Shown here: piece by piece, positions 12,859-42,658 of the stretch | Numbering within the stretch: the stretch's first letter is position 1 | Layout of the letters: every line of letters starts with the position of its first letter | From: Prevotella sp. | GTDB taxonomy: Bacteria > Bacteroidota > Bacteroidia > Bacteroidales > Bacteroidaceae | Length of the DNA: 64,000 nt | Direction of reading: 5' to 3' | NCBI GenBank assembly: GCA_017651265.1 | Contig: JAGCDO010000029.1 | Span: 62,001-126,000 of the forward strand | The notes under the pieces: model-generated | Told to the model about the DNA's origin: nothing | Databases searched by the model: none | Seen by the model: only the letters and a program-made list of their open reading frames with translations | Translations under genes and position numbers: made by a program

Positions 12859-13050
12859 ATAATTCTCCGCCATATCAATGTAATTGCATGATTACCTGAA
12901 GGTTCGTGGCGGAGAATTATAATGTACTTATGTATCAGAAAAGGATATGACCACCAATAGTTTGGGAGCATGATAACACACCTTATAATATAATTGCTCC
13001 GCCATCAACTTGTTGACCATAAGTTGATTAGGCATAATAGCGGAGCATTC
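12859..13050 (+). repeat. Structured dispersed element, copy 1
   Basis: About 190 bp, also present at 42428-42619 without length change. Outer hairpin: 14-bp perfect stem 12859-12872 with 12907-12920, enclosing a small GTAAT/ATTAC stem. Second hairpin: TGCTCCGC 12995-13002 with GCGGAGCA 13040-13047, enclosing ATCAACTT 13004-13011 with AAGTTGAT 13021-13028. Both hairpins start with CTCCGCCAT. A T-rich stretch follows. Covariation with copy 2 supports a folded RNA or single-stranded DNA. Confidence 0.8.
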
Positions 13051-13092
13051 TTTTATTTTCATCTGGCGATAACAAGGCTAATAACGCTCTTC

Positions 13093-13175
13093 AACTAGGC
13101 TAGTTACTCATAGAAACTAGGCTGATAACTCATAGAAACTAGGCTGGTTGGAGGCACTAACTAGGCTGGTTAGGG
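13093..13175 (+). repeat. 22-bp tandem repeats (AACTAGGCT core), copy 1
   Basis: Four units of 21-23 bp beginning AACTAGGCT, the middle ones reading AACTAGGCTGATAACTCATAG. The same block follows the structured element at 42.6 kb. There are no unique spacers, so it is not a CRISPR. Confidence 0.8.
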
Positions 13176-13188
13176 AGCGTTAGAAGAC

Positions 13189-13217
13189 TTGTTTTCGCAC
13201 GAAAACTACTATCTTTG
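13189..13217 (+). promoter_or_regulatory. Orphan promoter with a palindromic operator-like spacer
   Basis: TTG 13189-13191 and TATCTTTG 13210-13217, 18 bp apart. The spacer contains the perfect palindrome GTTTTCGCACGAAAAC (13191-13206). No gene follows for 1.4 kb. Confidence 0.55.
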
Positions 13218-13261
13218 TGGCGTCATTTAAAATAATAATGCTCATTGGTCGAAAATTGGTC

Positions 13262-13892
13262 AACATCTAACCCAAGATGCTTGAAATATCGATGCGCAAA
13301 GAAATTGAGGCGGGTTAGATGATGGCTGAACATCTAACCTACATCTAACCTACATATCCCGTTCATCTCCCGTCAGAGTCAGAATCGTCGTTATAACGTT
13401 ATTACGTAATTACGTAACTACGATGTTACGAGGAAGGGGAAATTTAGAAAACTATGGCAATTTGCGTTAGAAACTATGGCAGTTTCTGGTAAAAAGTGCC
13501 TCGAACGCCTATAGCCGGAACGTCAAACGCCTATAGCCGGAACGTCAAACGCTGATAGCGGGAACGTCAAACGCTGGGAGCGTTTACGGCGTTCAGTGTT
13601 TTTTAACAGGAAAGGGGTGGTTTGTTAACGGATTTTTGCACGCTACGAGGGGTTGATTTTTGGTCGCCTCAGATTTTTGTTGTAACTTTACAGGCGCAAA
13701 GCATGAAGGCGTAACCATGCGGGAAATGGGGTTTGAGCATGTATTACGCAAAAACATCTCATATTACAAAATTGCACACCAAAAGGTTGCATAAGGTATA
13801 TCTGGGTTAGATGTTGGTTAGATGTTTAGATATCATCTAACCCTCCTCAAACCCTTTACAGCAGGGGCTTTCAGGCATTTTGGGTTAGATGT
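13262..13892. repeat. CATCTAACC motif array in both orientations
   Basis: CATCTAACC or its complement GGTTAGATG occurs about eight times: near 13264, 13313, 13331, 13342, 13804, 13815, 13834 and 13881. The group at 13803-13843 forms an inverted repeat (GGGTTAGATG ... CATCTAACCC). Confidence 0.6.
13505..13585 (+). repeat. 22-bp tandem repeat (ACGCCTATAGCCGGAACGTC)
   Basis: Three full units of 22 bp at 13505, 13527 and 13549 and a partial fourth; the third unit varies (ACGCTGATAGCGGG). Each unit contains a small imperfect palindrome around TATAG. Confidence 0.8.
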
Positions 13893-14032
13893 TGGGGTAA
13901 AAATTCTATTTTCTTTCTCTACGAATTAGACGAATTCCTTACCCAGCAGTTATGAATTATAGAAAATTTATGCCAAGCAGCATCATGCAGATGTTGCCCT
14001 TCATTTTTTTAGAATTTTCGCTTTTTCCTCAA

Positions 14033-14330
14033 GACCTAACATTGGGAAAGGCTAATTGCTTTATTATAAATGACTTAGAAGCAAAATGGGTGCTAAAAGA
14101 CCTAACGTAAGAGGTAACAAACACCTAACATAACACCTAACATAAGACCTAACATTTTAGAGGCAAAAGTCAACGAAGTTAAGCAAGAGGCATGTGATTC
14201 GCCAGTGGTTAGGTTACATGTTAGGTCTTATGTTACCTCTTTGTTAGGTGTTATGGTAGGTCTTTAGGGTGTCAAAAACGCGTGAAACACCTATATACAG
14301 GTAATTCCTTCCGTGAAACTGTTAGGTCTT
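14033..14330. repeat. CCTAACAT inverted-repeat block
   Basis: About ten copies of CCTAACAT-like motifs, direct in the left half and complementary in the right half. The longest match is a perfect 16-bp inverted repeat, 14140-14155 with 14218-14233, flanked by AAAGACCTA (14097) and TAGGTCTTT (14257). The arms could form a long hairpin. Confidence 0.7.
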
Positions 14331-14417
14331 GGGCAAAACACAAAATTATTTCATTTATTCATTTGAATTGCAAATACGGATGAACACAAAACAGAGTTTC
14401 CTGCCGTATAACTAGTT

Positions 14418-14456
14418 GTTCCCAACGTGGGAACATTTTATTCCCAACGTGGGAAT
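14418..14456. promoter_or_regulatory. Two tandem palindromes, TTCCCAACGTGGGAA
   Basis: GTTCCCAACGTGGGAAC at 14418-14434 and ATTCCCAACGTGGGAAT at 14440-14456. The centres are 22 bp apart, about two helical turns. The outermost pair differs (G/C versus A/T) but stays complementary. They lie about 95 bp upstream of the Nif3-like gene's -7 box, so they may be operators. Confidence 0.55.
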
Positions 14457-14545
14457 AGAAAGCGCCAAAGAAAGAGAGAGAGAAAAGTTTCGTTAACAAA
14501 TATAAAAAAAAAGGAGCGAAGGAAGGAGAGTTCAGGAATTCTTCG

Positions 14546-14553
14546 TACTTTTG
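14546..14553 (+). promoter_or_regulatory. -7 element of the Nif3-like gene
   Basis: TACTTTTG, 52 bp before the TTG at 14605. The -33 is not obvious. A 6-codon ATG frame (14563-14583) lies in the leader. Confidence 0.45.
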
Positions 14554-14604
14554 CACAAGAAAATGAATCGAGGAAACAGTTGAGCGCAAGCGAGACTTGA
14601 AAAA

Positions 14605-15405
14605 TTGAAAAGCGTGAACATAAAGGAAGTGGTGAATGCCCTTGAACGTTTCGCGCCTCTGCCCTTGCAGGAAGGATTCGACAATGCCGGTCTGCAAGTT
14701 GGATTGACAGAGACGCAGGAGGTATCAGGGGCATTGTTGTGTCTAGACGTGACCGAAAAGGTGGTGGATGAGGCTGTGGCGTTAGGCTGCAACCTGATCG
14801 TGAGTCATCATCCCCTGCTGTTCCATGCCCTGAAGAAAATTACGGGCAAGGATGATGTGCAGCGGGCGGTGGTGAAGGCTATCAAGCACGATATCACGGT
14901 GGTGTCGATGCACACCAATTTAGACAATGCCTTAGGTGGCGTGAACTACAAGATTGCGGAGAAGATGGGTCTGCAGGAACCAAGGTTCTTCGGTCCTGAG
15001 AAGTCCGTGGGTGATGTGCAAGGTGCCAGTGGTGTGATAGGCGAGCTGAGAGAGCCGATGTCGGCCAGCGATTTCCTTGCCATGGTGAAGCAACGCTTCG
15101 GCGTGGATTGCATTCAGGCCAACCAGCTGTTGCAGCGCCCCATCAAAAAGGTGGCAATCTGCGGTGGGGCAGGAGCATTCCTGCTGGACGATGCTATTGC
15201 CGAGGGTGCAGATGCCTTTGTTACCGGCGAGATGCACTACCATGATTACTTCGGTCATGAGCAACAGATACAGATTGCCGTCATCGGTCACTACCAGAGC
15301 GAGCAGTACACCAGTGAGCTCTTCAAGGAGATCATCGAAAGGGAATGTCCAGGCGTTCCCTGCTTCCTCACGGAGGTGATGACGAATCCGATTGTTTACG
15401 TTTGA
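14605..15405 (+). CDS. Nif3-like dinuclear metal centre hexameric protein
   Basis: A 266-residue member of the Nif3/DUF34 family (called GTP cyclohydrolase I type 2 homologue in databases). ERFAPLPLQEGFDNAGLQVG, SHHPLLFH, MHTNLD and GHYQSEQYT are the family's metal-binding segments; the length is that of the short form lacking the central insert domain. There is no ATG: the start is TTG 14605 or, equally plausible, GTG 14614 (MNIKEVV). Function is uncertain in the family. The zinc-ribbon gene downstream is its usual neighbour in Bacteroidota. Confidence 0.88.
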   Translation: MKSVNIKEVVNALERFAPLPLQEGFDNAGLQVGLTETQEVSGALLCLDVTEKVVDEAVALGCNLIVSHHPLLFHALKKITGKDDVQRAVVKAIKHDITVVSMHTNLDNALGGVNYKIAEKMGLQEPRFFGPEKSVGDVQGASGVIGELREPMSASDFLAMVKQRFGVDCIQANQLLQRPIKKVAICGGAGAFLLDDAIAEGADAFVTGEMHYHDYFGHEQQIQIAVIGHYQSEQYTSELFKEIIERECPGVPCFLTEVMTNPIVYV

Positions 15406-15409
15406 CGAG

Positions 15410-15461
15410 GAAGGACGAAGGACGAAGGAGTCTTCTGGAGGAAGGACGAAGGACGAAGGAA
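15410..15461 (+). repeat. Heptanucleotide GAAGGAC tracts (2 x 3 units)
   Basis: Units GAAGGAC, GAAGGAC, GAAGGAG at 15410-15430 and GAAGGAC, GAAGGAC, GAAGGAA at 15441-15461, in the spacer between the Nif3-like and zinc-ribbon genes. A G/C-rich inverted stretch (CCTCCCCCTGTTGGGGGG, near 15515) follows. Confidence 0.75.
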
Positions 15462-15552
15462 GTTTTCGAGGAAAAAAAATAATAACAACAACGGCCCGTG
15501 CCCCTGTTTGCGGCCTCCCCCTGTTGGGGGGATAAGAGGGGGGCTCCGATTT

Positions 15553-16395
15553 ATGGCAAAGAAAGATCCAACAGACTTGTCAGTTGAAGAGAAACTGAAA
15601 ACACTTTACCAGTTGCAGACAACCTTGTCGGCAATTGACGAGAAGAAGGCCCTGAGAGGTGAGCTGCCTCTTGAAGTACAGGACCTGGAAGACGAAATCG
15701 CCGGTCTGAATACCCGTGTGGAGAAGATCAAGGGCGAGATAGAAGACTTCCAGCAGGCTATCATCCAGAAGAAGGGTGAGATTGAAGACGCCAAGGCAAG
15801 CGTGGAACGCTACAAGAGTCAGCTGAACGACGTGAAGAACAACCGTGAGTACGACACGCTGAGCAAGGAGATTGAGTTCCAGGAGCTGGAGATTGAGCTC
15901 TGTAACAAGAAGATCCGCGAGGCTGGCGTGAAAGTGGAAGATCGTAACAAGGACCTGGAGCAGGCTGAAGAGCTGATCAAGGACCGTCAGATTGCCCTCG
16001 AGGAGAAGAAGAGTGAGCTCGACGAGATCATGGGTGAGACCCGTGCAGAGGAGGAGAAGCTCAAGGAGAAGGCTAAGGAACTGGAGCTGAAGATCGAAGA
16101 GCGTCTGCTCACCAGCTACAAGCGTATCCGTAAGAATGCCCGTAACGGACTGGGTATCGTGTATGTGCAGCGTGATGCTTGCGGTGGCTGCTTCAACAAG
16201 ATTCCGCCACAGCGTCAGCTCGACATCAAGATGCACAAGAAGATTATCGTATGCGAGTACTGCGGACGAATCATGATCGATCCGGAGTTGGCTGGCGTGA
16301 AACTCGACAAGCCCGTTGACGATAAGCCCAAGCGCAAGCGCTCCATCCGCAAAAAGCAGACAGAGGATGTGCCTGAGGCATCAGCAGAAGATTAA
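15553..16395 (+). CDS. Coiled-coil protein with a C4 zinc ribbon
   Basis: A 280-residue protein of the zf-RING_7 family (PF02591). Residues about 10-190 are a long heptad-rich coiled coil; the C-terminal DACGGCFNKIPP and VCEYCGRIM supply four cysteines of a zinc ribbon; a basic, lysine-rich segment and an acidic end follow. The start is ATG 15553: the longer frame (15508) would translate a low-complexity G/C-rich spacer. Family members are proposed to act in gene regulation or RNA metabolism, but the role is not settled. Confidence 0.85.
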   Translation: MAKKDPTDLSVEEKLKTLYQLQTTLSAIDEKKALRGELPLEVQDLEDEIAGLNTRVEKIKGEIEDFQQAIIQKKGEIEDAKASVERYKSQLNDVKNNREYDTLSKEIEFQELEIELCNKKIREAGVKVEDRNKDLEQAEELIKDRQIALEEKKSELDEIMGETRAEEEKLKEKAKELELKIEERLLTSYKRIRKNARNGLGIVYVQRDACGGCFNKIPPQRQLDIKMHKKIIVCEYCGRIMIDPELAGVKLDKPVDDKPKRKRSIRKKQTEDVPEASAED

Positions 16396-16419
16396 TTATC
16401 AAACTAAAACAATACAACT

Positions 16420-17742
16420 ATGAGTCAAACTAACAAACAGAATGGAAGCATCATCGCCATCGTAACGATGTTCTTCCTGTATGCCATGATCTCGTTCGTA
16501 ACGAATCTGGGCGCTCCTATCGGTGTGATCTGGAAGAACCAGCCTGAAATCGGTGGTTCTAACGTGCTGGGTATCATGGGTAACTTCATGAACTTCTTTG
16601 CTTACCTGTTCATGGGAATCCCCGCAGGTAAGATGCTCACCAAGGTGGGTTACAAGAAAACTGCCCTCATCGGTATTGCCGTGGGCTTCTTCGGCGTACT
16701 GATTCAGTACCTCTCTGGTCATTCCAGCGGTATCCCCGGCTTCTGCATCTACCTGTTAGGTGCCTTTATCTCAGGATTCTCCGTATGTATCCTGAACACC
16801 GTGGTGAACCCGATGCTGAACCTCTTGGGCGGTGGTGGTAACCGTGGTAACCAGCTGAACATGATTGGTGGTACACTGAACTCATTGGCCGGTACGCTTA
16901 CCCCGATGTTGGTTGGTGCACTGATTGGTACTGTTACAGCCAGTACGAAGATGGCCGACGTGAACCTGGTGATGTATATTGCCATGACCGTCTTTGCTGC
17001 CGCCTTCGTGATCTTGCTGTTCATCCCCATCCAGGATCCTGAGATGGGTAAGGTAACGGCAGATACCGTGTTTGAACACTCACCCTGGTCGTTCCGTCAC
17101 TGCTTGTTAGGCGTGATTGCCATCTTCGTCTATGTAGGCGTAGAGGTGGGTATCCCTGGCGGTCTGAACTTCTACCTCTCTGACACCACTGCCAACGGTG
17201 CTTGGGTGAACCCCGAAGCTGTGCTGAATGCTGCTACCATTGGTGGTGCTGTGGCTGCTATGTACTGGCTGCTGATGTTGATCGGTCGTCTGTGCTCCAG
17301 CGTGATTGCCGGAAAGGTGTCGTCTCGTCAGCTGATGCTTACTACAACAACCATCGGTATGATCCTGATCATTGCCGCTATGCTCACCCCGAAATCAGTG
17401 ACTGTTTCCATGCCGTTGTTCTCTATCCTTGAGGGATCGTTCTCAACGGTGGTGGTACCGGTAAGCGCTCTGCTGCTCGTGCTCTGCGGACTCTGTACTT
17501 CTGTGATGTGGGCTTCCATCTTTAACCTGGCTACTGAAGGTCTTGGCAAATATACTGCCCAGGCTTCCGGTATCTTCATGATGATGGTGGTTGGCGGTGG
17601 TGTGCTGCCTGTTGTGCAGAACTTCTTCGCCGACATCATGGGTTACATGCCGAGCTACTTCATCTACCTGCTGGGTATGGCCTACATGTTCTACTACGCC
17701 CTCCTCGGCTGCAAGAACGTGAACAAGGACATTCCAGTTTAG
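16420..17742 (+). CDS. Sugar MFS transporter, FHS/FucP-like
   Basis: A 440-residue protein with about 12 membrane segments. The segment VVNPMLNLLGGGGNRGNQLN with the following IGGTLNSLAGTL resembles the NP...G...LN motif of the FucP/GluP (fucose:proton symporter) family in Bacteroidota. It lies 24 bp downstream of the zinc-ribbon gene with no promoter in between, so the two may be co-transcribed. The substrate cannot be told from sequence; a hexose or deoxyhexose is likely by family. Confidence 0.8.
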   Translation: MSQTNKQNGSIIAIVTMFFLYAMISFVTNLGAPIGVIWKNQPEIGGSNVLGIMGNFMNFFAYLFMGIPAGKMLTKVGYKKTALIGIAVGFFGVLIQYLSGHSSGIPGFCIYLLGAFISGFSVCILNTVVNPMLNLLGGGGNRGNQLNMIGGTLNSLAGTLTPMLVGALIGTVTASTKMADVNLVMYIAMTVFAAAFVILLFIPIQDPEMGKVTADTVFEHSPWSFRHCLLGVIAIFVYVGVEVGIPGGLNFYLSDTTANGAWVNPEAVLNAATIGGAVAAMYWLLMLIGRLCSSVIAGKVSSRQLMLTTTTIGMILIIAAMLTPKSVTVSMPLFSILEGSFSTVVVPVSALLLVLCGLCTSVMWASIFNLATEGLGKYTAQASGIFMMMVVGGGVLPVVQNFFADIMGYMPSYFIYLLGMAYMFYYALLGCKNVNKDIPV

Positions 17743-17768
17743 AAGCAAGAGGTAAGAAGCAAGAGGTG
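17741..17768 (+). repeat. 14-bp tandem duplication between two genes
   Basis: AGAAGCAAGAGGTA followed by AGAAGCAAGAGGTG. The 14-bp period is a multiple of seven, as in the other tracts of this window. Confidence 0.6.
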
Positions 17769-17778
17769 AGAATAGCCT

Positions 17779-18798
17779 ATGGTTTTTACTTATCTCGCAG
17801 ATCCCCTTATCGGCGGTGTCATTGGCTATATCACCAATGACATCGCCATACGTATGCTTTTCCGACCACATCAGGCTAAATACCTGTTTGGTCGGAAATT
17901 GCCTTTTACACCTGGTATCATCCCCAAGGAGAAGGGTAGGATAGCAGGGGCTGTTGGCGGGGCCATCAGCGAGAACCTGATGAATCAGGAGGTGATGGAA
18001 AGGAACTTACTCTCGGAGGAGATGATGGAGAAGCTCTCTGCTACCTTCGACCGTTTCTTCGATACGCAGAGGAAGAGTGACGAAACACTGAGATCGTTCC
18101 TGAAACGCTTCCTTTCCGACGAGGAGATAGAAAGTATCTCAACCGACATGCAAGGACAACTCACCACGCTGATCTCCAAGAAGATGGCTGATTCGGAGGT
18201 GGGTGGTAAGATTGCTCACTTGGCCGTTGACCATGTGATGCAGAAGATGCAGCACTTCGGCAGTCATATAGGCGATGCACTCAGCGAGAACGGTATCGGT
18301 AAGGGTGGGGGCTTCGGCGATATGATCAGTAGGGGCATCGGACGGATCTTCGGTAATTCTTCGAAGAAACATGCCTCCGACTTCATCAATTCCTTGGCGG
18401 CACCTGTGGAACAGGCATTGGCCAAGAACATCAACGAGATGCTGCGCGACAACTCTGCAGAGATGGTGGGAGGGATGATTCAGAAGGAACGCCAGCGACT
18501 CCTCGACTGTACGATGAGTGAGTTGCTGGAGGATAAGGAAGAGCAGATAGCCCAGCTGAAATCATCGATCATCTCTTTATACCAGCACGTCATCACCGAA
18601 CGTCTGCCCCGCATTCTCCATGCCATCAATATCAGTAAGATGATCGAGAACCGAATCAACGAAATGGAGATGGCCGAGGCGGAACATCTGATCCTGGAGG
18701 TGATGGACAAAGAACTCAAGGCCATTGTGTGGCTCGGTGCCCTTTTAGGCGCCATCATGGGAACCTTAAATCTGCTCACAAGCAACTTCCTGTATTAA
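17779..18798 (+). CDS. DUF445 family membrane protein
   Basis: A 339-residue protein with the DUF445 signature at the N-terminus (DPLIGGVIGYITNDIAIRMLFRPH, then FTPGIIPKEKGRIA) in and after the first membrane segment, a long helical middle part, and a C-terminal hydrophobic segment (VWLGALLGAIMGTLN) repeating the GxxxG-like pattern of the N-terminus. DUF445 proteins are inner-membrane proteins of unknown function. It follows the transporter by 36 bp. Confidence 0.85.
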   Translation: MVFTYLADPLIGGVIGYITNDIAIRMLFRPHQAKYLFGRKLPFTPGIIPKEKGRIAGAVGGAISENLMNQEVMERNLLSEEMMEKLSATFDRFFDTQRKSDETLRSFLKRFLSDEEIESISTDMQGQLTTLISKKMADSEVGGKIAHLAVDHVMQKMQHFGSHIGDALSENGIGKGGGFGDMISRGIGRIFGNSSKKHASDFINSLAAPVEQALAKNINEMLRDNSAEMVGGMIQKERQRLLDCTMSELLEDKEEQIAQLKSSIISLYQHVITERLPRILHAINISKMIENRINEMEMAEAEHLILEVMDKELKAIVWLGALLGAIMGTLNLLTSNFLY

Positions 18799-18802
18799 CA
18801 GG

Positions 18803-18834
18803 TTTGGTAGTTTCGTTTTTTTGTATTATCTTTG
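18803..18834 (+). promoter_or_regulatory. Promoter of the propeller/AraC regulator gene
   Basis: TTTG 18803-18806 and TATCTTTG 18827-18834, 20 bp apart: a full consensus. It lies inside the longest frame (TTG 18821), so translation must start later. Confidence 0.75.
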
Positions 18835-18853
18835 CAGCAAACTACTAAAGGAT

Positions 18854-21874: not shown

Positions 21875-21917
21875 CAATAATTTATTTTTGTCCACCTTTA
21901 TTATCATTTTATCCACC

Positions 21918-21945
21918 TTGCGTGTTAGCAATTCCACTACTTTTG
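21918..21945 (+). promoter_or_regulatory. Promoter of the arabinan-type PUL
   Basis: TTG 21918-21920 and TACTTTTG 21938-21945, 17 bp apart, 54 bp before the susC start. The short repeat TCCACCTT (about 21889 and 21912) just upstream could be a regulator site. Confidence 0.5.
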
Positions 21946-21999
21946 CTGACAGATAATTGTATTACTAATCTAAAAACTCCTAAATTTAAAACAATTAAC

Positions 22000-25218: not shown

Positions 25219-25270
25219 TGCATCATTATAATATATAAGGTACATTGCATAAAAATATAAATTGACAATT

Positions 25271-27016: not shown

Positions 27017-27063
27017 ACAAAGGTAAGTAAGTATAATAGTAACATAGTAAAAAAGATACAATT

Positions 27064-29022: not shown

Positions 29023-29023
29023 A

Positions 29024-30808: not shown

Positions 30809-30812
30809 TCAT

Positions 30813-31862: not shown

Positions 31863-31888
31863 AACTCAAGTTAATGAATAATGTCTCC

Positions 31889-31917
31889 AGCCCCCTCTCT
31901 CATGAGGGGGCTTTTTT
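31889..31917 (+). terminator. Intrinsic terminator of the arabinan-type PUL
   Basis: AGCCCCCTC (31889-31897) pairs with GAGGGGGCT (31904-31912), loop TCTCAT, followed by a T run to 31917. Confidence 0.9.
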
Positions 31918-31989
31918 GTGGTTTTCGTTTCCTGTCACAGAAGTAGCATGTAACAAACGTTTGGTATATGAAATGCCGTAATGTCGGGA

Positions 31990-32020
31990 TTGCTGGTGTC
32001 TCAAAACCTCCGTACCTTTG
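31990..32020 (+). promoter_or_regulatory. Promoter of the peptidase/SusCD operon
   Basis: TTG 31990-31992 and TACCTTTG 32013-32020, spacing 20 bp, 51 bp before the first gene. No other clear promoter is seen until 42.9 kb, so 32072-42275 may be one transcript. Confidence 0.7.
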
Positions 32021-32071
32021 CACCGTCGAAAACGACATAGATATAAGTTAAACAAATAAACGTGTGAAATT

Positions 32072-32971
32072 ATGAGAAAGAAAGTCATTCTGAATGTAAA
32101 GGAGGCAAAGAGTAAGGTAACCGCAGTATTGTTAACATGCTTGATGTGGCTCCCTATGATGTCTCTGGCGCAAAACCTGCAGATTAATGTTAGCGATGCT
32201 CAGTTCACTCGTCAGATGATGGAACGACTCATTAAAGAATATAATAAGGTAAATCCAGAGTTTACCGCAACTGTTGTGGACACTCGTGAAAAGGCAGATG
32301 CCTCGGTGAGTCTCTCTGGACAGGACGAGGTGAATAGTATCGGACGCTTCGCTATCCTACCCATTGCTAACTCTGAGAACGAACTGCTACACAATAAAAA
32401 GGTGGTTAAGGGTTTGAGTAATAAACTGATGCATCAAATCTTCGTAGAGCGTGATCTCCTGGAAGAACTTGATGATGAGGAGGATGGTGAGAAACAGTTG
32501 CCGGGCACCGTCTATTCGCTGACGGGTAGTCACGCCATCACGACAACTTTGGTGGCTCGGGATTTGAGTATCACCCCCAACCGTGTGAAGGGTAAGAAGA
32601 TCCTGGGCAGTGAAGAGAATCTGATCAGTGCCGTGAAGAGTCATCAGGATGCTATTGCCTTCAATGTGGCCAGTCTTGCATATGACAGCAACACCCATCA
32701 GCCTATCGAGGGACTGACCGTATTGGCTACCGATCTGGACGGCAACGGGCGCATCAGCGACGAGGAGCGACAGGTGATCGGTAATCTCGACCAGTTGACA
32801 GACTATCTTGATAAGCTGCCGCACACGGGTCTGCCCACAGGCAGTATCAGCATCAAGACCGAAAATCAGGAGCTGCTCAGATTCGTTGATTGGGCCTCGA
32901 CAGAGGGACAGGGCTATCTGTCTCCTTACGGATTCCTGAAAGCCAATAAAGCACTGACGGCTCTTAAGTAA
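32072..32971 (+). CDS. PstS-like periplasmic substrate-binding protein with an EF-hand loop
   Basis: A 299-residue secreted protein (signal peptide ending MMSLAQ after a long charged N-region). The overall pattern (FAILPIANSENEL, TGSHAITTTLVARDL, KILGSEENLISAVKSHQDAIAFNVASLAYD) resembles phosphate-type binding proteins of the PBP_like family. About residues 223-234 read DLDGNGRISDEE, a complete 12-residue EF-hand calcium loop. It is the first gene of the operon encoding a carboxypeptidase, SusCD and an S9 peptidase. There is no ABC transporter nearby, so it may bind something else or act as an accessory. Confidence 0.6.
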   Translation: MRKKVILNVKEAKSKVTAVLLTCLMWLPMMSLAQNLQINVSDAQFTRQMMERLIKEYNKVNPEFTATVVDTREKADASVSLSGQDEVNSIGRFAILPIANSENELLHNKKVVKGLSNKLMHQIFVERDLLEELDDEEDGEKQLPGTVYSLTGSHAITTTLVARDLSITPNRVKGKKILGSEENLISAVKSHQDAIAFNVASLAYDSNTHQPIEGLTVLATDLDGNGRISDEERQVIGNLDQLTDYLDKLPHTGLPTGSISIKTENQELLRFVDWASTEGQGYLSPYGFLKANKALTALK

Positions 32972-33004
32972 AGCATTAAATCTTCATTCTTAAAGATCAA
33001 TGAA

Positions 33005-35614
33005 ATGAGTAAGAAAATTTATTCATTAGCGATAGCTGTGCTCATCAGTCTGGTGGCACAGGCACAGTCAAGCTACTATTTTGGTAGCGACGAAAAGTTC
33101 GACGAGTCAATCCCTACCCCAGAGGAGTTCTTCGGATTTCCTATTGGTTCGGCTCTTGTAAGATACGATCGTGTGGTTGAGTATTTCCGTTTGTTGGATA
33201 AACTCTCTGACCGCGCACAGTTCAAGGTGATCGGCCATACTCACGAGAATCGCGAATATGTGATCCTGCACATCTCTACTCCCGACAACATCAGGAACCT
33301 GGAACAGATACGCCAGCAGCATGTGAAGCTGACCGACCCGAGTCAGCCCCTTGCTTCGAATTACGACGATCAGAAGGTGATTATCCAGCTGGGCTACAAC
33401 GTGCATGGCGGTGAGCTGGCTGGTACGGATGCCTCCGTGCTGGCAGCCTATTATTTCACAGCCTCCAAGAATGCCGATATCGTGAAGCGTCTGGACGATG
33501 CCGTGATACTGATAGAACCAGCACTGAACCCCGACGGTCGCGAGCGCGCTGCTCAGTATTTCAACTCGTTCCACAGCATCCCGCCGGTGAGCGATGCTCT
33601 CGACATCGAGCACACGCAGAGCTTCACCCCATTGCGTGGTAATCATTTCTATGCCGACCTGAACCGCGACTGGTTTGCGCTGGTTCACCCGGAGAGCCGT
33701 GCCCGTGCCGCTTACTATCACCAGTGGTATCCTAATATATACATCGACTACCACGAGATGGGTTCCAACAGCAGCTACTATTTCGAACCCTCGCCAGAGC
33801 GCAGCACATGGAACTATACCGTTCCCGAAAGCACCTATGCTGAGTTGAACGTCATCCTGGCCAAGTATTTCGGCTCAGAGCTCGACAAGATCGGTTCGCT
33901 CTACTTTACGAAGGAGAACTATGATAACATCTCACCGATCTATGGTTCTACCTATCCCGACTTTGAAGGTGGCGTGGGTACTACCATCGAGGTGGGCAGC
34001 TCACAGGGCGTACAGGTGGAGTCGAGTTTAGGCATTCACAAATTTGCCAAGAACCTGCGTGACCATACCCGTAGTGCCATTGGTGCGCTGAAGGCCGGTA
34101 CCGATCAGAAGACCGTGTTCCTGCGTCATCAGCAGGAGTTCTTCAAGAGCGCCATCACCAAGGGCGGCAAGGGCTACATCGTGTTTGGCAATGCCGAGGA
34201 TAAGGGCATCACCCATCTCTTCCTCGACAATCTGCTGCGCCATAAGATTGAGGTACACAAACTGTCGAAGGACTTCAGTCAGGGCGGTAAGCAGTTCAAG
34301 GCCGACGGTGCCTATGTGATTCCTCTGGGACAGGCACAGTGGCGACTGGTAAATGCTGCCTTCGATGAGCATACAGAGTTTGTTGACAGCATCTTTATGG
34401 ACATTACTGCCTGGAGCACGGCTCATGGATATGGTCTGCCCTTCGTACGTACGGCAGCTGCTGGCGTTGGCGAGCTGGTGACCGAGGTGCCCGCCGTTCA
34501 GAAACCTACCTTCAACAAGTCGGAATATGCATATCTGATCGACTTTTCGGATTTCCGTGCCACGAAGGTGCTCTATGAACTGCTCGATAAGGGTATCTAC
34601 GTGAAAGCAGCCTATAAGCCTTTTGCTACTGAGACTGTGGAAGCCGGAATCCAGCAAGCTGCTATAGGTAGTCTGCTCGTTCCGCTGGTATATCAGACGG
34701 TATCGGTAGATAGTGTTTACAATACCATCCGTCAGGCCGTTGAGGGTACCAACGTACAGGTTTACAGTCTGAAGACCGGTCTGAGTCAGGCAGGTATCGA
34801 TCTGGGAAGCGACAACTTGATTGAGGTTAAGAAACCCGTTGTGGCTACCTTCGTCAGCACAAGCGGTAACGGTGGCATCAACTGGACGGCCATCGGCGAG
34901 ACATGGAATCTGCTGAGTAGCCACCATCACATCCCCTTGACAAAGATCTTCAGCGACTATGCCGATCGTACCCCTCTTAATCGCTACACAGCCATCATCT
35001 TGGTCGACGGCACCTATCAGAACTTCTCCAAGCAGTTCGTTGAGCGTTTGCGCAGATGGGTCAGCGAAGGCGGTGTGCTGATCACCTCACAGAGAGCCAC
35101 CCAATGGGCCATCGCCAATGATTTGGCACCACACTTTGAAAAGGCCGAGAAGAAAGAAGAGGCTGCCGATAAGAAGGATACTAAGGCAAATGCCGACCAA
35201 TACCAGCGTCTGGACTATGCGAAGCAGCGCGAGGTGAACGGACCGAGCCGCATTGGAGGCGTACTCTACGCTGCCGACCTTGACATCACCAACCCGCTGG
35301 CCTATGGCATACACAGTCGCGAGATCTACACCATGAAGACGGGCAACTATGTGCTTCCCCGACCCACCAGCAGTTTTGCCTCACTGGTTCAGCTGAAAGG
35401 CGACAAGCAGTTGGGTGGTTATCTTACCAAGGAGAATCAGAAACGGTTGAAGGATGCCACAGTCATAGCCTACGATAACTTGGGGCAGGGCACGGTAGTA
35501 CTCTTCAGTGAGTCGCCCACCTATCGCGGCTATTGGTTCAGCACCAGCCGTATCTTGACCAATGCCCTTTTCTTCGGAAAGAATGTATCAGGTAGCAACC
35601 GCTACCGTCCGTAG
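33005..35614 (+). CDS. M14 family zinc carboxypeptidase
   Basis: An 869-residue secreted metallopeptidase (signal peptide ending LVAQAQ). Zinc ligands: H134 and E137 in YNVHGGELAG and H250 in YIDYHEMGS; NPDGRE and DLNRDWF are the substrate-binding segments; IEVGSSQG near 330 carries the catalytic Glu. A roughly 480-residue C-terminal extension includes a DJ-1/GATase-like region and a lysine/glutamate-rich low-complexity stretch (about 715-735). It removes C-terminal residues from peptides, probably in the periplasm, in concert with the RagAB-like pair downstream. Confidence 0.88.
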   Translation: MSKKIYSLAIAVLISLVAQAQSSYYFGSDEKFDESIPTPEEFFGFPIGSALVRYDRVVEYFRLLDKLSDRAQFKVIGHTHENREYVILHISTPDNIRNLEQIRQQHVKLTDPSQPLASNYDDQKVIIQLGYNVHGGELAGTDASVLAAYYFTASKNADIVKRLDDAVILIEPALNPDGRERAAQYFNSFHSIPPVSDALDIEHTQSFTPLRGNHFYADLNRDWFALVHPESRARAAYYHQWYPNIYIDYHEMGSNSSYYFEPSPERSTWNYTVPESTYAELNVILAKYFGSELDKIGSLYFTKENYDNISPIYGSTYPDFEGGVGTTIEVGSSQGVQVESSLGIHKFAKNLRDHTRSAIGALKAGTDQKTVFLRHQQEFFKSAITKGGKGYIVFGNAEDKGITHLFLDNLLRHKIEVHKLSKDFSQGGKQFKADGAYVIPLGQAQWRLVNAAFDEHTEFVDSIFMDITAWSTAHGYGLPFVRTAAAGVGELVTEVPAVQKPTFNKSEYAYLIDFSDFRATKVLYELLDKGIYVKAAYKPFATETVEAGIQQAAIGSLLVPLVYQTVSVDSVYNTIRQAVEGTNVQVYSLKTGLSQAGIDLGSDNLIEVKKPVVATFVSTSGNGGINWTAIGETWNLLSSHHHIPLTKIFSDYADRTPLNRYTAIILVDGTYQNFSKQFVERLRRWVSEGGVLITSQRATQWAIANDLAPHFEKAEKKEEAADKKDTKANADQYQRLDYAKQREVNGPSRIGGVLYAADLDITNPLAYGIHSREIYTMKTGNYVLPRPTSSFASLVQLKGDKQLGGYLTKENQKRLKDATVIAYDNLGQGTVVLFSESPTYRGYWFSTSRILTNALFFGKNVSGSNRYRP

Positions 35615-35661
35615 TGGAATGCTCAAGAATAAAAAAGTAAATTTAATAGGATAACGACTAT

Positions 35662-38600
35662 ATGAAAAAACTTGTATTATTAATTTTTTGCTTAATCACC
35701 ACCCTCAGCGCGTCTGCCCAAGACGTGCTGAAGGGTCGGGTACTTGATGAGCGTACCGACGAGCCTATCATCGGTGCCGCCATCCAGGTTAAAGGTTCGC
35801 GCAATGCTGCCGTAACCGATATCGATGGACAGTTCTCTATCACATTGGAAGGAAAGTCACCCTACACCTTGGTAGTGACCTATACAGGATACAACCAGCA
35901 GGATCTGGAGGTTTACGATGCCAGTTCCACCGTGGATATCTATATCCGTGAGAACAGTCGTCTTCTCAATGAGGTGGTGGTCGTAGGATATGGTACAGCC
36001 AAGTCGCGCGATGTCATCTCGTCGATCTCTTCCATCAACAAGGAGAAGCTCGAAGGCGTGACGGGTCATAGCATCGACAACCTCCTGGAGGGTCATGCCG
36101 CAGGTGTGATGGTATCCACAGCAGGCTCACAGGTTGGTTCTGCACCAGTCATCAATATCCGTGGTGTGGCTTCTATCACCTCGAGTGTCACCCCTCTCTA
36201 TGTGGTTGACGGTGTGCCCATCAACACCAGTGATATCGCATCCAACACCGACTACAACCCTGTAGCCGATATCAACCCCGCCGACATCAAGTCGATTGAT
36301 ATCCTGAAAGATGCCGCTGCCAGTGCCATGTATGGTTCGAGAGCAGCAGCGGGTGTTGTGCTCATCACCACCAATTCGGGCTATGCCGGTAAGACAAAAC
36401 TCACCTACGACTATAACGTCGGTTTCAACTCAGCAACCAAACTGCTCGACCCGCTGACAGCACAGGAGTTCACCGACATCAAGAATCGTGGATGGCTGAA
36501 CAATGGCGGCGACCCCAACAAGCTGCCTTACGCCACCATGACCGACAGTCAGGGCCGTATCGTAAGCACCAACTGGGTGGATCTGATTTTCCACACAGGT
36601 ATTTCCCAGAACCACAACCTCAACGTGCAGGGCGGTAACGACAAGGGTACCTACTATCTGTCAAGTAGCTATACCACTCAGGAAGGTATCACCGTCGATG
36701 CCAAATACAACCGTTTCTCTTTCAAGGGCAATGGCACCTACAAGCTGAATAAGTATGTGAAGGTGGGCTTCAACACTGGTTACACCTATAGTAAGATTCA
36801 TACTGCCGACGATTCGCGAAGCGGCTCGCTCAGCGCTATGGGTGGACTTACCCGTCTGGCCTATGTCGACCTGCCCAACGTGCCAGCATATAACGAAGAC
36901 GGCACACCCTATGCTTCGGCACTGGCACCACAGAACCTGGGTAAGGGTAACAATGCCATCGAGGTGTTCTACTACAATGCTATGGGCCTGATTGACGGCG
37001 GACAGTATGGTGAGTCGAAGACACACCGTATTCTGGCCAACGGTTACGTGGACATCACCCCACTGAAAGGCCTCACCCTGAAATCACTCTACGGCATCGA
37101 CTGGACGCTGGTTCAGAACGAATCGTTCAGCACCCCGCTGCATGGCGGTGGTTATCCCGACGGTAGAAGCAGTGCAGGTACATCGAGTCTGAGAAGTTGG
37201 ACATGGACCAACACTGCCGATTACAACCTCAACCTCAAGAAGCATCGCTTCGACATCCTCGTTGGTGTGGAGGCTTCCGAGAACAATCGCCACACCATCA
37301 CACGCTCCGGCACCACACTAAGTAACCCCGACCAGATGTATGTCGAGGCACCCTATATCACCTATAGCGGTTCTGGTAACATTCTGGAGAGCAGCATGTT
37401 TAGCTACATCAGCCGACTCACCTACGACTGGAACAGCCGTTACTACCTGACAGCCAACTGGCGTCGCGATGGTTTGTCTAAGTTGGGACGCAAGTGGGGT
37501 AACTTCTTCGGTATCAGCGGTGCATGGCGCATCTCCGACGAGCGGTTCTTCCGTAGTCTGCGCGAGGATGGCATCATCGACGACCTCAAGTTGAAAGCCA
37601 GCTACGGTATCGTGGGTAATGCCAATGTAGACTGGTATGCCTCAAAGAGCGTTTATTCAGCCTCAACCTACAATGGTGTTGTATCATACGTTTCTTCGGG
37701 TATCAACGATCCTAATCTGGGTTGGGAGCAGACAGCAACAACCGACTTCGGTTTTAATGCCTCCCTGTTCAGGGGTCGCCTCACGGTTGATGTAGACTAT
37801 TTCTATTCCAGGTCGAAAGACCTGATTCTCAACGCCTCTCAGGCTTACTCTACAGGTATCGTCGGCGCCTCTATCAGCACCAACCTTGGTAAGACCCGCA
37901 ATACCGGTATCGAACTCAGCGTGAGCGGCGACATCATCCGCAAAAAGAAGTTCTCATGGAACTCAACATTCAACATCTCTTTTGTCAAGAACAAGGTGCT
38001 TGAACTGGCCGATGATATCATCAGTGGTTCCAACATCACTACCGAAGGCTATTCTCTGGCACAGCTCTACACATACCCCACAGATGGTGTTGACCCACAG
38101 ACAGGTCGTCGCGTGGTACTCATCAAGCGCGAAGATGGTGGTTACGATCGTCAGCTGCTCATCTACAAGTATGGTCAGGGCGGCGCCCAGATTTACGAAT
38201 TGGATGGCGAAACCAAGTCGAAGTACACCCTGAGTGACTGGAAGCCCGAGATTGCGGGCAACACCAAGCCCACCTGGTACGGCGGTTGGAGCAATTCTAT
38301 CCGCTATAAGAACTGGGATGCCAACGTTAACTTCCACTTCTCTGGTGGTAACAAGATCCTGAATCTGATGCGTGCCACACTCTCCGACGGTCGTATGTGG
38401 AGTGGCTGTAAGGAGTGGTACGACCATATCTGGCAGCAGTCTGGCGACCATGCCAAATATGCGAAGGCCTCTTATAACGACAACTACTCTAACGGTACAG
38501 CCAACCCCATCAGCGATTTGATTGAGAAGGGCGACTTCATCCGTCTGCAGAGCCTTTCTATCGGCTACAGTTTCAAGACCAAGCGCTGGCCGAAGGAGTT

Positions 38601-38781
38601 GGGCATCAGTTCAGTGCGTCTCTATGCCCAGGCACAGAACTTGTTCTGTATCACAGGTTATTCTGGCTTCGACCCCGAGATCAACTCGTATTATAACGAT
38701 GCCAACCTGCGTTCGGGTATCGATTCCAACACCACTCCTCTTACACGCACCATCACATTCGGAGCAAACATTTCATTTTAA
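35662..38781 (+). CDS. SusC/RagA-like TonB-dependent transporter (peptide locus)
   Basis: A 1039-residue outer-membrane receptor: signal peptide (ending LSASAQ), carboxypeptidase-D-like domain (AIQVKGSRNAAVTDIDG), TonB box region (NEVVVVGYGTAKSRDV), plug (PLYVVDGVPINTSDI; MYGSRAAAGVVLITT) and a barrel ending GANISF. It lacks an STN domain, so no anti-sigma signalling is expected. The neighbours are peptidases and not glycoside hydrolases, so the cargo is likely oligopeptides, as shown for RagAB of Porphyromonas (established for that system, inferred here). Confidence 0.93.
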   Translation: MKKLVLLIFCLITTLSASAQDVLKGRVLDERTDEPIIGAAIQVKGSRNAAVTDIDGQFSITLEGKSPYTLVVTYTGYNQQDLEVYDASSTVDIYIRENSRLLNEVVVVGYGTAKSRDVISSISSINKEKLEGVTGHSIDNLLEGHAAGVMVSTAGSQVGSAPVINIRGVASITSSVTPLYVVDGVPINTSDIASNTDYNPVADINPADIKSIDILKDAAASAMYGSRAAAGVVLITTNSGYAGKTKLTYDYNVGFNSATKLLDPLTAQEFTDIKNRGWLNNGGDPNKLPYATMTDSQGRIVSTNWVDLIFHTGISQNHNLNVQGGNDKGTYYLSSSYTTQEGITVDAKYNRFSFKGNGTYKLNKYVKVGFNTGYTYSKIHTADDSRSGSLSAMGGLTRLAYVDLPNVPAYNEDGTPYASALAPQNLGKGNNAIEVFYYNAMGLIDGGQYGESKTHRILANGYVDITPLKGLTLKSLYGIDWTLVQNESFSTPLHGGGYPDGRSSAGTSSLRSWTWTNTADYNLNLKKHRFDILVGVEASENNRHTITRSGTTLSNPDQMYVEAPYITYSGSGNILESSMFSYISRLTYDWNSRYYLTANWRRDGLSKLGRKWGNFFGISGAWRISDERFFRSLREDGIIDDLKLKASYGIVGNANVDWYASKSVYSASTYNGVVSYVSSGINDPNLGWEQTATTDFGFNASLFRGRLTVDVDYFYSRSKDLILNASQAYSTGIVGASISTNLGKTRNTGIELSVSGDIIRKKKFSWNSTFNISFVKNKVLELADDIISGSNITTEGYSLAQLYTYPTDGVDPQTGRRVVLIKREDGGYDRQLLIYKYGQGGAQIYELDGETKSKYTLSDWKPEIAGNTKPTWYGGWSNSIRYKNWDANVNFHFSGGNKILNLMRATLSDGRMWSGCKEWYDHIWQQSGDHAKYAKASYNDNYSNGTANPISDLIEKGDFIRLQSLSIGYSFKTKRWPKELGISSVRLYAQAQNLFCITGYSGFDPEINSYYNDANLRSGIDSNTTPLTRTITFGANISF

Positions 38782-38805
38782 AAGCAATTTGAACATTCGA
38801 GCGTT

Positions 38806-40257
38806 ATGATTATCAATACAAACAAATATATCGTATCAGGCCTGTTAGGCATTGCGCTTTCAGCCTCATTGACATCGTGCGGAGACGATTTTCTCGACAA
38901 GAATCCCAAGCTCTCTGTCACAGAACACGACATCTACGCATCAGAACAGTTGATCGACGCCACCATGACCGGTGTTTTCACACGCTTCAAAAACAGCAGT
39001 TTCGCTGGTGGTAACATCTCTGTCATCTTTGATAACCGAAGCGATGACTTAGTCAACACCGGCAACAACACGCTAGCCCACTCAGACACCTACAACTTCA
39101 CCGTTGCTCAGAACAGTGCGATGAATCCCAGTTTCTTCCAGGCAGGCTATCAGGCCATCAATGCAGCCAACACCTTGAAAGAGGCACTGGAGCAGCGCGA
39201 CAACCTGCCCATATCTGAGGCTAAGCGTCAGCAGTATATTGCCAACAGTCTCTTTATCCGTGATATCAGTTGGTACTACCTGGCTCAGGTCTATTCGCAG
39301 CCCTATGCCTACGATCCCAATTCAAAGGCTATCCCTGTACACACCGAAGCCGTTACGGGTCCAGGCTATAACGATGCGCCACTTTGGACGATAGGTCAGA
39401 TCTACGATCAGATCATCACCGACCTGAGCAGCAGTGTCATTGCAGCCCTGCCCGACAACACGGGCGCCTCGTTCGATCCCACCATCCCCTCACAGGCAGC
39501 CGCCCACATGCTGTTGCAGCGCATCTATATGGCGAAGGGCCAGTGGCAGGAAGCCATCAGCGAGGGTGAGCAGGTGACGGGATTCTCGCTGAGCAGCAGT
39601 GTCCGCGAGATGTTCGATGCCCCCTACCACACGGCAGAAAACATTTATTCGATGCCCTTCACCAACACCGAGCGAGGAGGGGGACAGCGCCATCCGGCCA
39701 GCTATATCGCCAGCGAAGTGGGCTATATCGACACCCTCAACACCCGTACGGGTATCATCACCATTCCAGAATATCACCTGGCCACCGACAGTCGTACCCA
39801 GTTCATCAAGGTCGACCCAGCCACGGGCCGCGAAACCTGGTATGAGAAATACGATGAGTACACCGTGATGGTAGAGTGGGTACACATCTTCCGCTATGCC
39901 GAGACACTGCTGAACCTCTCTGAGAGCTACTACAACATCGGCAACTATCAGAAAGCCGCCGAGTTGCTGGATCAGGTGCGCCGTCGTTCTATTCCTGTAG
40001 GCGATATCATCGATGTCAAATCGCTTACTGGCGAAGCCTTGAAGACAGCCATCTATAATGAGCGCCGTGCCGAGTTTCTTGGCGAAGGCCTCCGTGGCCT
40101 CGACATCAGTCGTCGCGCAGAAGACTTTATCCATCCCGCTGCCACAACTACCAATGGCAAGTGGAACACTGTGGTCGTAGCCACCCCCGCCGACCGTACC
40201 GCCTACTGCTGGGCACTCCCCTCCTATGAAATCCTCGTTAATCCCAGTGCACATTAA
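38806..40257 (+). CDS. SusD/RagB-family lipoprotein (peptide locus)
   Basis: A 483-residue lipoprotein (lipobox SLTSC, residues about 20-24) of the SusD family, partner of the preceding SusC. Typical segments are FLDKNPKLSVTEHDIY, QAINAANTLKEAL, AAAHMLLQRIYMAKGQWQEA, RYAETLLNLSESYYN and IYNERRAEFLGEGLRGLDISR. Starts 24 bp after susC. Its stop TAA shares one base with the start codon of the S9 peptidase gene (TAATG), implying translational coupling. Confidence 0.93.
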   Translation: MIINTNKYIVSGLLGIALSASLTSCGDDFLDKNPKLSVTEHDIYASEQLIDATMTGVFTRFKNSSFAGGNISVIFDNRSDDLVNTGNNTLAHSDTYNFTVAQNSAMNPSFFQAGYQAINAANTLKEALEQRDNLPISEAKRQQYIANSLFIRDISWYYLAQVYSQPYAYDPNSKAIPVHTEAVTGPGYNDAPLWTIGQIYDQIITDLSSSVIAALPDNTGASFDPTIPSQAAAHMLLQRIYMAKGQWQEAISEGEQVTGFSLSSSVREMFDAPYHTAENIYSMPFTNTERGGGQRHPASYIASEVGYIDTLNTRTGIITIPEYHLATDSRTQFIKVDPATGRETWYEKYDEYTVMVEWVHIFRYAETLLNLSESYYNIGNYQKAAELLDQVRRRSIPVGDIIDVKSLTGEALKTAIYNERRAEFLGEGLRGLDISRRAEDFIHPAATTTNGKWNTVVVATPADRTAYCWALPSYEILVNPSAH

Positions 40258-42275
40258 TGAATAAGAAACATACATTTAGCATATTCGCATGGGCACTCTT
40301 GCCACTGCTATCTACGGCACAGGAAGTGGCGTCTGACAAACAACTTGTCGGTCTCGATTTCTTTGCCAAGATCAAGGCAGTCTCGCAAGTCAAGACCATT
40401 GGTGATGACATCTTCTTCGTCCTCCGCCAGGCCAATGTGAAAACCGACAGCTATAGTTCCGACCTCTATCAGCTGGTCGATGGAAAAGCTGTCAGACTGA
40501 CCGATACCGGGCACTTCGGCAACTATGAGATTATCGACGATGCCATTGTCACCCAAAAGGTAGAGGGAAAGAAGACCGTTTTATACAAGCAGACCAAGAG
40601 TTATGGCGGGCCACGAGAGTGGCTCACCATACCCTATCAAGCGGGTCAGATTAAGTTTATCGACAATACACACTTCTTCTTCACATCCTCGAAAAAGGTG
40701 GAGAAAGAGCCCTTTCAGCTGCCTGATTCCCTGAAGGCACAGGATGCCGATAAGCGCTATCGTGTCTTTGAAGATCTGCCGTTCTGGTCAAATGGGCGTG
40801 GAGACATCCAACGCCACCACACGGTACTCTATTATTCAGACAACGGCAAGGTGACCGCCCTCACCGACAGTCTGGCAGGTGTCGGAAGTCTGGCGCTGAG
40901 TAAAGATGCGCGCTATCTGGTCTATACCGATACCCGTGAACAAGGTCCTAAGACGTTTGGCAACAAGCTGTATGCCATAGACACCAAGACCCTTCAGGCC
41001 CGTGAACTCGTCGTTGGGGATAGTGTTCGTTATGGTTCCCCTACGTTTATCGATGGCGAAAACATCTTCATCTCCGTCGGCAAGCGCAATAAAGCGAACC
41101 CCCAGGCCAACTCACCTTATTACCGAATCAATGTCAAGACAGGCGAAAGCCAGTATATCTACGACAATGACTTCTACGCCATTGGCGATGGTACGTCATC
41201 CGATGTGAAGTCGGGCAATCGTTCGGATATCCTGTTCGAGAAGCAGGGCATTGTGTTCAAGACCGCCAAGGCCGACTATTCCGTGCTGGTCCGCCTGCCT
41301 TACCAAGGTGGAAATGTGAAGTTGCTTACCCCCGGCGATTTCAATGTCGACGAGTACCTGCCCTACAAGAAAGGTTACCTGCTGGTGGGCGCCTATGGAC
41401 AAGACGGTCAGGAACTCTTCTACTTCGATGGTAAGAACGCGCCTCAGCGTATCAGCGATATCAACACATCGCTTTTCGCGTCACATCATATTGCCCATCC
41501 TCAGGAGATCAAATATGTCAACAGCGACGGACTGGAGCTGCGTGGTTTTGCCTTGCCTCCCATCGGCTACGTGCCAGGCAAAAAGTATCCAACGATTCTT
41601 GATATCCATGGTGGCCCCAAATCAGCCTATGGTTTCGGCTTTTTCCATGAGATGCAGTATTGGGCTGCCCAGGGCTACGCAGTCATCTTTGCCAATCCCC
41701 ACGGCAGCAGTTCCAATGGCAATGCGTTTGCCAACTTGAAAGGCCGATTCGGAGGTCCAGACTACGACGACCTCATGGCGTTCGTGGATGCGGCCATCGA
41801 GCAGGCGGATTTCATCAACCCGGAGCGTCTTGGCGTAACAGGTGGCTCCTATGGTGGTGTGATGACCAACTGGATTATCGGGCATACCAATCGTTTCCGT
41901 GCGGCAGCCTCCCAGCGAAGCATCTCCAACTGGATCTCGCTCAGTGCCCTCAGCGACATCGGTTATAGCTTTGTCGACGGCTATTCCGGCACCGATATCT
42001 GGCATGATTCCGAACTGCTTTGGAAACAGTCGCCTCTGGCCTATGCCGACAAGGTGCGCACCCCTACGCTCTTTATCCATAGCGACGAAGACTACCGCAC
42101 GCCATTGCCCGAGGGCCTCCAGATGTACAGTGCCCTGAGATATCATGACATCCCCGCCCGTATCGTCATCTTCAAGGGTGAAAACCACGAGCTCTCCCGC
42201 AGCGGCCGTCCCCAGAACCGTATCCGCCGCCTACAAGAGATCACCCATTGGTTTGATAAATATCTCGCCCAATAA
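40257..42275 (+). CDS. S9 family prolyl-oligopeptidase-type serine peptidase
   Basis: A 672-residue secreted peptidase (signal peptide ending LLSTAQ). The N-terminal part (about 30-400) is the seven-bladed propeller; the C-terminal alpha/beta hydrolase has the nucleophile GGSYGG, the acid in FIHSDEDYRTPL and the His in KGENHELSRSG. It resembles DPP/acylaminoacyl-type S9C enzymes. Its start overlaps the SusD stop by one base. It probably degrades imported oligopeptides in the periplasm. Confidence 0.9.
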   Translation: MNKKHTFSIFAWALLPLLSTAQEVASDKQLVGLDFFAKIKAVSQVKTIGDDIFFVLRQANVKTDSYSSDLYQLVDGKAVRLTDTGHFGNYEIIDDAIVTQKVEGKKTVLYKQTKSYGGPREWLTIPYQAGQIKFIDNTHFFFTSSKKVEKEPFQLPDSLKAQDADKRYRVFEDLPFWSNGRGDIQRHHTVLYYSDNGKVTALTDSLAGVGSLALSKDARYLVYTDTREQGPKTFGNKLYAIDTKTLQARELVVGDSVRYGSPTFIDGENIFISVGKRNKANPQANSPYYRINVKTGESQYIYDNDFYAIGDGTSSDVKSGNRSDILFEKQGIVFKTAKADYSVLVRLPYQGGNVKLLTPGDFNVDEYLPYKKGYLLVGAYGQDGQELFYFDGKNAPQRISDINTSLFASHHIAHPQEIKYVNSDGLELRGFALPPIGYVPGKKYPTILDIHGGPKSAYGFGFFHEMQYWAAQGYAVIFANPHGSSSNGNAFANLKGRFGGPDYDDLMAFVDAAIEQADFINPERLGVTGGSYGGVMTNWIIGHTNRFRAAASQRSISNWISLSALSDIGYSFVDGYSGTDIWHDSELLWKQSPLAYADKVRTPTLFIHSDEDYRTPLPEGLQMYSALRYHDIPARIVIFKGENHELSRSGRPQNRIRRLQEITHWFDKYLAQ

Positions 42276-42313
42276 TAATCTCTGCAGTCCAAGTTTTATT
42301 CAAAACTCCCAAC

Positions 42314-42340
42314 CGGTCACGAAAAGTGACCGATTTCTGT
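42314..42340 (+). terminator. Terminator of the peptidase/SusCD operon
   Basis: CGGTCAC (42314-42320) pairs with GTGACCG (42326-42332) across a GAAAA loop, followed by a T-rich stretch ATTTCTGTTTCT. Confidence 0.6.
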
Positions 42341-42427
42341 TTCTCTTCATCATTCAACTGTAACATGAAGTCTTCTGTATAAAACTGGCAATGGGTATGG
42401 TCTTCATCATGAATACGATAGTAATCC

Positions 42428-42619
42428 ATAATCCTCCGCCATATCGATGTAATTACATGATTACCAGAAGATTCGTGGCGGAGGATTTTATTGGGCTTAT
42501 GTATCAGAAAAGGGTGTGACCACCAATAGATTGAGAGCCTGATGGCACACCTTATAATATAATTGCTCCGCCATCAACTTGCTGACAATAAGTTGATTAG
42601 GCATAATAGCGGAGCATTC
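42428..42619 (+). repeat. Structured dispersed element, copy 2
   Basis: Same length as copy 1 (12859-13050). Outer stem AATCCTCCGCCA 42430-42441 with TGGCGGAGGATT 42476-42487; second hairpin TGCTCCGC 42564-42571 with GCGGAGCA 42609-42616 with the inner ATCAACTT/AAGTTGAT pair kept. Compared with copy 1 the fourth stem pair changed from T-A (12864/12915) to C-G (42433/42484), a compensatory double change. Confidence 0.8.
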
Positions 42620-42658
42620 TTTTATTTTCATCTTGTGATAACAAGTGATTACTCATAG

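Follow-up and report, generated by a model that had tools for sequence, protein, structure and literature searches.

Within a 64,000-nucleotide stretch from the genome of a Prevotella-type gut bacterium (Prevotella sp., assembly GCA_017651265.1, contig JAGCDO010000029.1, positions 62,001 to 126,000; hereafter the window), two short copies of a hairpin pair appear to be remnants of a larger element in which the same hairpins enclose a gene for a VapE-like AAA+ helicase with a DUF3874 C-terminus. Sequence comparison shows that the hairpin pair is dispersed, that its spacers derive from the helicase gene, that many such genes have element-specific repeats on both flanks, and that a second family has discrete inverted-repeat ends. 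Taking these together with a mechanism set out below, we favor, with moderate confidence, the view that the window copies are non-autonomous, deleted derivatives of a helicase element that acts on its own ends.

The copies, at 12859-13050 and 42428-42619, are 192 bp each, in agreement with a first-pass annotation that saw no length difference between two ~190-bp copies, and they are 90% identical across all 192 bases (E 1.6e-70). Their parts are as follows.

12860..12919, + strand: hairpin A of copy 1, from sequence and predicted fold
12921..12990, + strand: spacer of copy 1, in which the 3' coding end of the VapE/DUF3874 gene on contig C5 (L036:6205-6237) aligns at 12948-12979
12994..13048, + strand: hairpin B of copy 1
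13094..13190, + strand: array of ~22-bp units (AACTAGGCTG...) adjoining copy 1
42429..42488, + strand: hairpin A of copy 2, from sequence and predicted fold
42490..42559, + strand: spacer of copy 2, in which that 3' coding end aligns at 42511-42548
42563..42617, + strand: hairpin B of copy 2
42650..42745, + strand: array of ~22-bp units adjoining copy 2

The AACTAGGCTG arrays also adjoin another family (L113) and show no tie to a single helicase gene.

Several claims of the first-pass annotation can be refined at this level. Both hairpins of each copy do open with CTCCGCCAT, and they stand side by side rather than nested. The location 3' of a gene is exact for copy 1, which begins 3-4 nt past a stop codon (12855), and looser for copy 2, which lies ~150 nt past one (42275). 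The coordinated T-A to C-G change in the outer stem is real, with T12864-A12915 in the first stem of copy 1 replaced by C42433-G42484 in copy 2; among 27 distinct copies of hairpin A this pair is C-G in 19, T-G in 5, T-A in 1 and unpaired in 2. Covariation within the family is nevertheless modest: both-sided changes occur at 2 of 18 pairs, a result that 185 of 500 shuffles do as well, and the covariation score is equaled by 12 of 500. Loops said to vary freely are conserved: mean column identity of hairpin A over the 27 copies is 90%, and the inner GTAAT/ATTAC arm is almost invariant. Given such limited covariation and such conserved loops, selection for a structure is argued less from the swapped pair than from the evidence that follows. 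The predicted RNA folds of copies 1 and 2 exceed 200 shuffles in stability (z -3.7 and -4.6), and stable folds of this kind would suit a structured non-coding RNA family, one of two identities first suggested. We give that identity hardly any credence: Rfam returned no match at the gathering threshold for the whole window or at E up to 1 for 12800-13250, A and B can be found separated or singly, with spacers that differ greatly, and the spacers come from a coding gene.

The other suggestion, a dispersed element resembling repetitive extragenic palindromic (REP) sequences, is supported by the number of copies. A search of the same genome gave 26 matches at E <0.001, both window copies counted; with one more locus on C5 (L063) these resolve into about 17 loci, with 16 A hairpins and 15 B hairpins counted in the stretches examined. 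The CTCCGC arms of A and B are spaced from ~16 nt to ~1.65 kb apart across loci, with spacers that vary strongly from one locus to the next, and single A or single B hairpins are also present; A and B are thus separable. Two close relatives, G094 and G179, yielded 27 and 28 matches, respectively, to a 3.5-kb query around copy 2, of which about 22 and 24 overlap the hairpin part by our reading of the match listing. At E 0.001, a DNA search matched none of the 59 other genomes sampled from the genus. Most of the genomes used are drafts, and certain contigs stop at these repeats. From this distribution we infer that the hairpin element is mobile.

REP elements with their REP-associated tyrosine transposases (RAYT) and the IS200/IS605 insertion sequences (IS) likewise have hairpin ends and spread between genes, and hairpin pairs at intergenic sites are what a RAYT/IS200-type single-strand (Y1) transposase, the agent named in the first-pass annotation, could leave behind. 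Here, however, the search for such a transposase with PF01797 gave no hit that passed the cut-off (best E 0.15, in a draft 93.9% complete), while the same search was positive in 6 of 14 control genomes, and the parent gene in the complete version is a VapE/DUF3874 helicase instead. We therefore regard spread by a Y1 transposase as highly improbable.

That complete version is found on contig C5 (L036), where a single 420-aa gene lies between hairpins A and B. Its product, with a VapE-like domain (PF05272, 5.6e-33) and a C-terminal DUF3874 domain (PF12990, 7.5e-13), is predicted to be a VapE-like AAA+ helicase, and the modeled fold resembles PriRep1 (PDB 7pds); the protein thus has both the domain and the fold of the VapE helicases of PriRep and Staphylococcus aureus pathogenicity islands (SaPI). 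In PHROGs, protein P0002 matched phage helicases and primases; it matched no NCBIfam model and no PADLOC model, and a role in defense was set aside on the latter count. BT4734-type primase-helicases of Bacteroidota (PF08800) share the VapE and DUF3874 C-terminal half, and one such gene occurs in this genome (L060), whereas the scanned element proteins of ~400 aa gave no PF08800 match. Seven named relatives of the helicase, 98 to 29% identical, come from metagenome-assembled genomes titled Prevotella, Prevotellaceae or Bacteroidaceae, with ruminants named in several. In five of the seven (at least 70% identity), an A-like hairpin lies a few hundred nucleotides upstream and a B-like hairpin past the stop codon.

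The link from this gene to the window is the spacer. Aligned to the 3' coding end of the helicase gene, the spacer of copy 1 scores 44 against 26 for the best of 500 shuffles, a clear difference, and that of copy 2 scores 36 against 32, a narrow one. Because the spacers align there, the window copies are probably internally deleted derivatives of the kind seen in miniature inverted-repeat transposable elements (MITEs). Copies 1, 2 and a third on C45 match each other end to end and therefore spread already in the deleted state.

Some neighbors of the helicase genes deserve mention. On C5 a convergent gene (L036:6376-7035, HU-HIG by Pfam in L036) lies 3' of the helicase, an arrangement shared by 7 distinct members of its clade as judged from their start sequences. 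We considered its tail as part of the mobile unit and did not retain it: inclusion is clearly supported by the L044 copy (0 of 500 shuffles), weakly by copy 1 (6 of 500) and not by copy 2 (37 of 500). In the other helicase clade, a small Cys-rich open reading frame (ORF) follows about 11 helicases on the same strand, as judged by eye, and one tested fragment matches DUF6078. Partial VapE matches also occur at contig ends in G000 (C24:10-633, C47:7-627 and C57:13-579), as repeated genes in a draft would end.

The VapE/DUF3874 architecture is general in the genus, judging from the flanks of these genes. DUF3874 is present in 70 of 150 genomes of at least 80% completeness. For 52 of 59 genes encoding 350-500 aa (four were dropped by name as duplicates or short-flanked and three for too little flank), some of which are orthologues of each other, we compared the 9-mers of the 500 nt upstream with those of the 200 nt downstream. 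Upstream and downstream flanks of the same element have on average 13.8 9-mers in common, versus 1.5 between elements; the observed sum was reached by none of 10,000 permutations, and 36 of the 52 elements share at least three. Hairpin arms and short palindromic repeats make up many of the shared words: CTCCGCC in the window family, and CGGGAGG, ACCTACC, CACTCTACATTC and others elsewhere. They vary between helicase genes and match within each element.

This matching bears on the strongest rival, that the hairpins are terminators or insulators flanking the helicase gene, spread with it by recombination or an unseen mobile carrier, with no action of the helicase upon them. On C5, B (6318-6370) does sit between two convergent stop codons (helicase 6299, HU-HIG 6376), several B hairpins, those of L071, L083 and L085 among them, are preceded by A-rich and followed by T-rich sequence, and each window copy is 3' of a gene end. 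Yet termination needs no match between the arms of an element, let alone one specific to it, and a terminator scan, limited to short loops, listed neither A nor B. We judge terminators unlikely, though worth keeping in mind.

A second family, in two other genomes (G020 and G088), gives sharper boundaries. It comprises complete copies of ~1,726 bp and deleted copies of 223-429 bp with the same inverted-repeat ends. The complete copies L111 (G020) and L112 (G088) are 90% identical over 1,738 bp, with no match outside in the stretches compared. L112 opens with CCTCCCCTCCTCCC and closes with its inverse; L111 is nearly the same, its inverted ends less clear. Five short loci (L162-L165 in G088 and L166 in G020) retain both ends. 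In L111, L112 and L162-L166 the inverted ends fall at the limits of homology, a further point against terminators. Terminal inverted repeats are present in L112 and L162-L166, while A and B of the window family are hairpins with a common arm motif. Both families include short copies that keep the two ends of a gene-bearing parent and lack the gene, as MITEs do; these short copies are, by their anatomy, MITE-like. A MITE parent encodes a transposase, however, and the gene between the hairpins here is VapE/DUF3874.

Alternatively, then, these could be MITEs moved by a conventional transposase that reads the ends, with the helicase gene as a passenger. The anatomy is in favor of this, and our search of this genome for IS families covered PF01797 only. 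Nevertheless, the ends differ with each helicase gene, so that a separate transposase would be required for each; the helicase is the only ATG-started ORF of at least 100 aa between the ends of L112; and no consistent target duplication was seen by eye at the ends of the seven second-family copies. We consider a conventional transposase quite improbable. Among described elements, BrickBuilt of Porphyromonas gingivalis (PMC4596501) looks closest: it too is dispersed and intergenic, in about 19 copies, with inverted-repeat ends and 22-23-nt tandem units inside or beside it. BrickBuilt ends are IS5-family-like (GAGACC..., Table 2 of PMC4596501), which would suit a transposase, whereas ends here are CTCCGCC or CCTCCCC, the complete form has a VapE/DUF3874 gene and fragments of that gene persist in the short copies.

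Under the reading we favor, in which the helicase acts on its own ends, a complete element would consist of hairpin A, palindromic repeats, the helicase gene and hairpin B. The helicase, which is related to the replication helicases of the PriRep/SaPI type, would recognize its terminal hairpins and repeats and melt DNA at the ends, leading to local replication or single-strand exposure. Copies might then re-enter the chromosome at other intergenic sites via host functions; short copies, provided that both ends are retained, could be moved in trans. SaPI Rep works on repeats adjacent to its origin; here repeats lie on both flanks of the helicase, and binding is putative. SaPI and staphylococcal cassette chromosome elements carry integrases or recombinases and further genes. 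In contrast to the PriRep/SaPI systems of VapE-type helicases (PDB 7pds and 7om0), the complete element L112 has a single ORF of at least 100 aa between its ends, leaving no integrase and packaging genes inside such as phage satellites carry. The SaPI helicases called Rep belong to replicating islands, according to PMC10061031.

A number of observations weigh against this reading. To our knowledge, no helicase integrates DNA by itself. No base-exact empty site was found in the window compared with colinear DNA of G094 and G179, for L044, L041, L045 and L038 compared with relatives, or for L112 compared with G153 and G151, and no target duplication was found. The nearest case is L044, where G094 and G179 are without a hairpin-bearing stretch of ~300 bp, but rearrangement affects the left flank too. 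The two most distant relatives of the helicase (L072 and L073, ~30% identity) have no such hairpin pair. In the flank test, 16 of the 52 elements have at most two 9-mers common to both flanks; at least three are shared in 549 of 2,652 mismatched pairs and in 7 of 29 other ORFs of the same stretches, used as controls (mean 2.4). Motif sharing correlates with similarity of the C-terminus of the protein (residual correlation 0.256; 0 of 5,000 permutations), but the N-terminal control gave 0.208 (also 0 of 5,000); DUF3874 is thus not singled out as the specificity part, as the N-terminal part tracks the motifs nearly as well.

The surroundings of the copies are themselves eventful. After the stop codon that precedes copy 1, G094 and G179 are without it and have other DNA, and a pattern search of colinear stretches (80, 60 and 19 kb) found no such hairpin. 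From the endonuclease gene to the next gene, the gap holding copy 1 spans ~1.75 kb, compared with ~95-330 bp in six relatives with both genes on the fetched stretch. Two further relics lie in it.

13261..13936, + strand: relic of a second family in the gap; left hairpin 13261-13355, right part 13715-13936
14007..14460, no strand given: relic of a third family, with matches to both the upstream and the downstream side of the VapE gene at C26:44130 (L061)

The right part of the first matches the VapE gene on C68 (L062) at its 3' end and downstream flank, with 87% identity across 239 bp. Three resident helicase genes match copy 1 and the two relics; therefore, the three relic families in the gap correspond to them. 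Elsewhere, colinear DNA of G094 and G179 lacks an 11-kb segment of the window (31921-42906) that holds the genes at 32072-42275 and, toward its right end, copy 2. Differing small hairpin families (GAGGAAGGA and GTGGAATG) occupy the same intergenic spots in close relatives, once cut to a single unit, at the following positions.

window 15404-15466
L041:2700-2845
L209:1350-1465
L211:2175-2225

In G024, several similar 693-aa copies were considered as recent transposition and rejected, as they sit in duplicated segments of several kilobases; one of four similar segments there has 685 bp of extra GCAGATAACGCAGA-type repeats between two genes (L097:3072-3756).

Our literature search, which covered few subscription papers, found no description of VapE/DUF3874 genes with hairpin ends, and as far as these searches go the complete form is not a described type. 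A complete helicase element without a recognizable transposase hints at an undescribed way of DNA spread. We tentatively propose, as a possibility short of our expectation, a Prevotella-type superfamily that spreads with a replication helicase as its sole protein and without a transposase, integrase or nicking enzyme, the helicase reading terminal hairpins and palindromic repeats specific to each element, and host replication and repair copying and joining the DNA. If so, many palindromic and tandem repeats found between the genes of these genomes would be parasitic short copies of such elements. The present findings trace one class of intergenic hairpins and repeat arrays to a source and link it with DUF3874, a common gene family without an assigned role. 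Should the helicase alone move the element, DNA would be transposed without any transposase; were it confined to replicating the element in situ, the unit would still be a minimal helicase-origin cassette.
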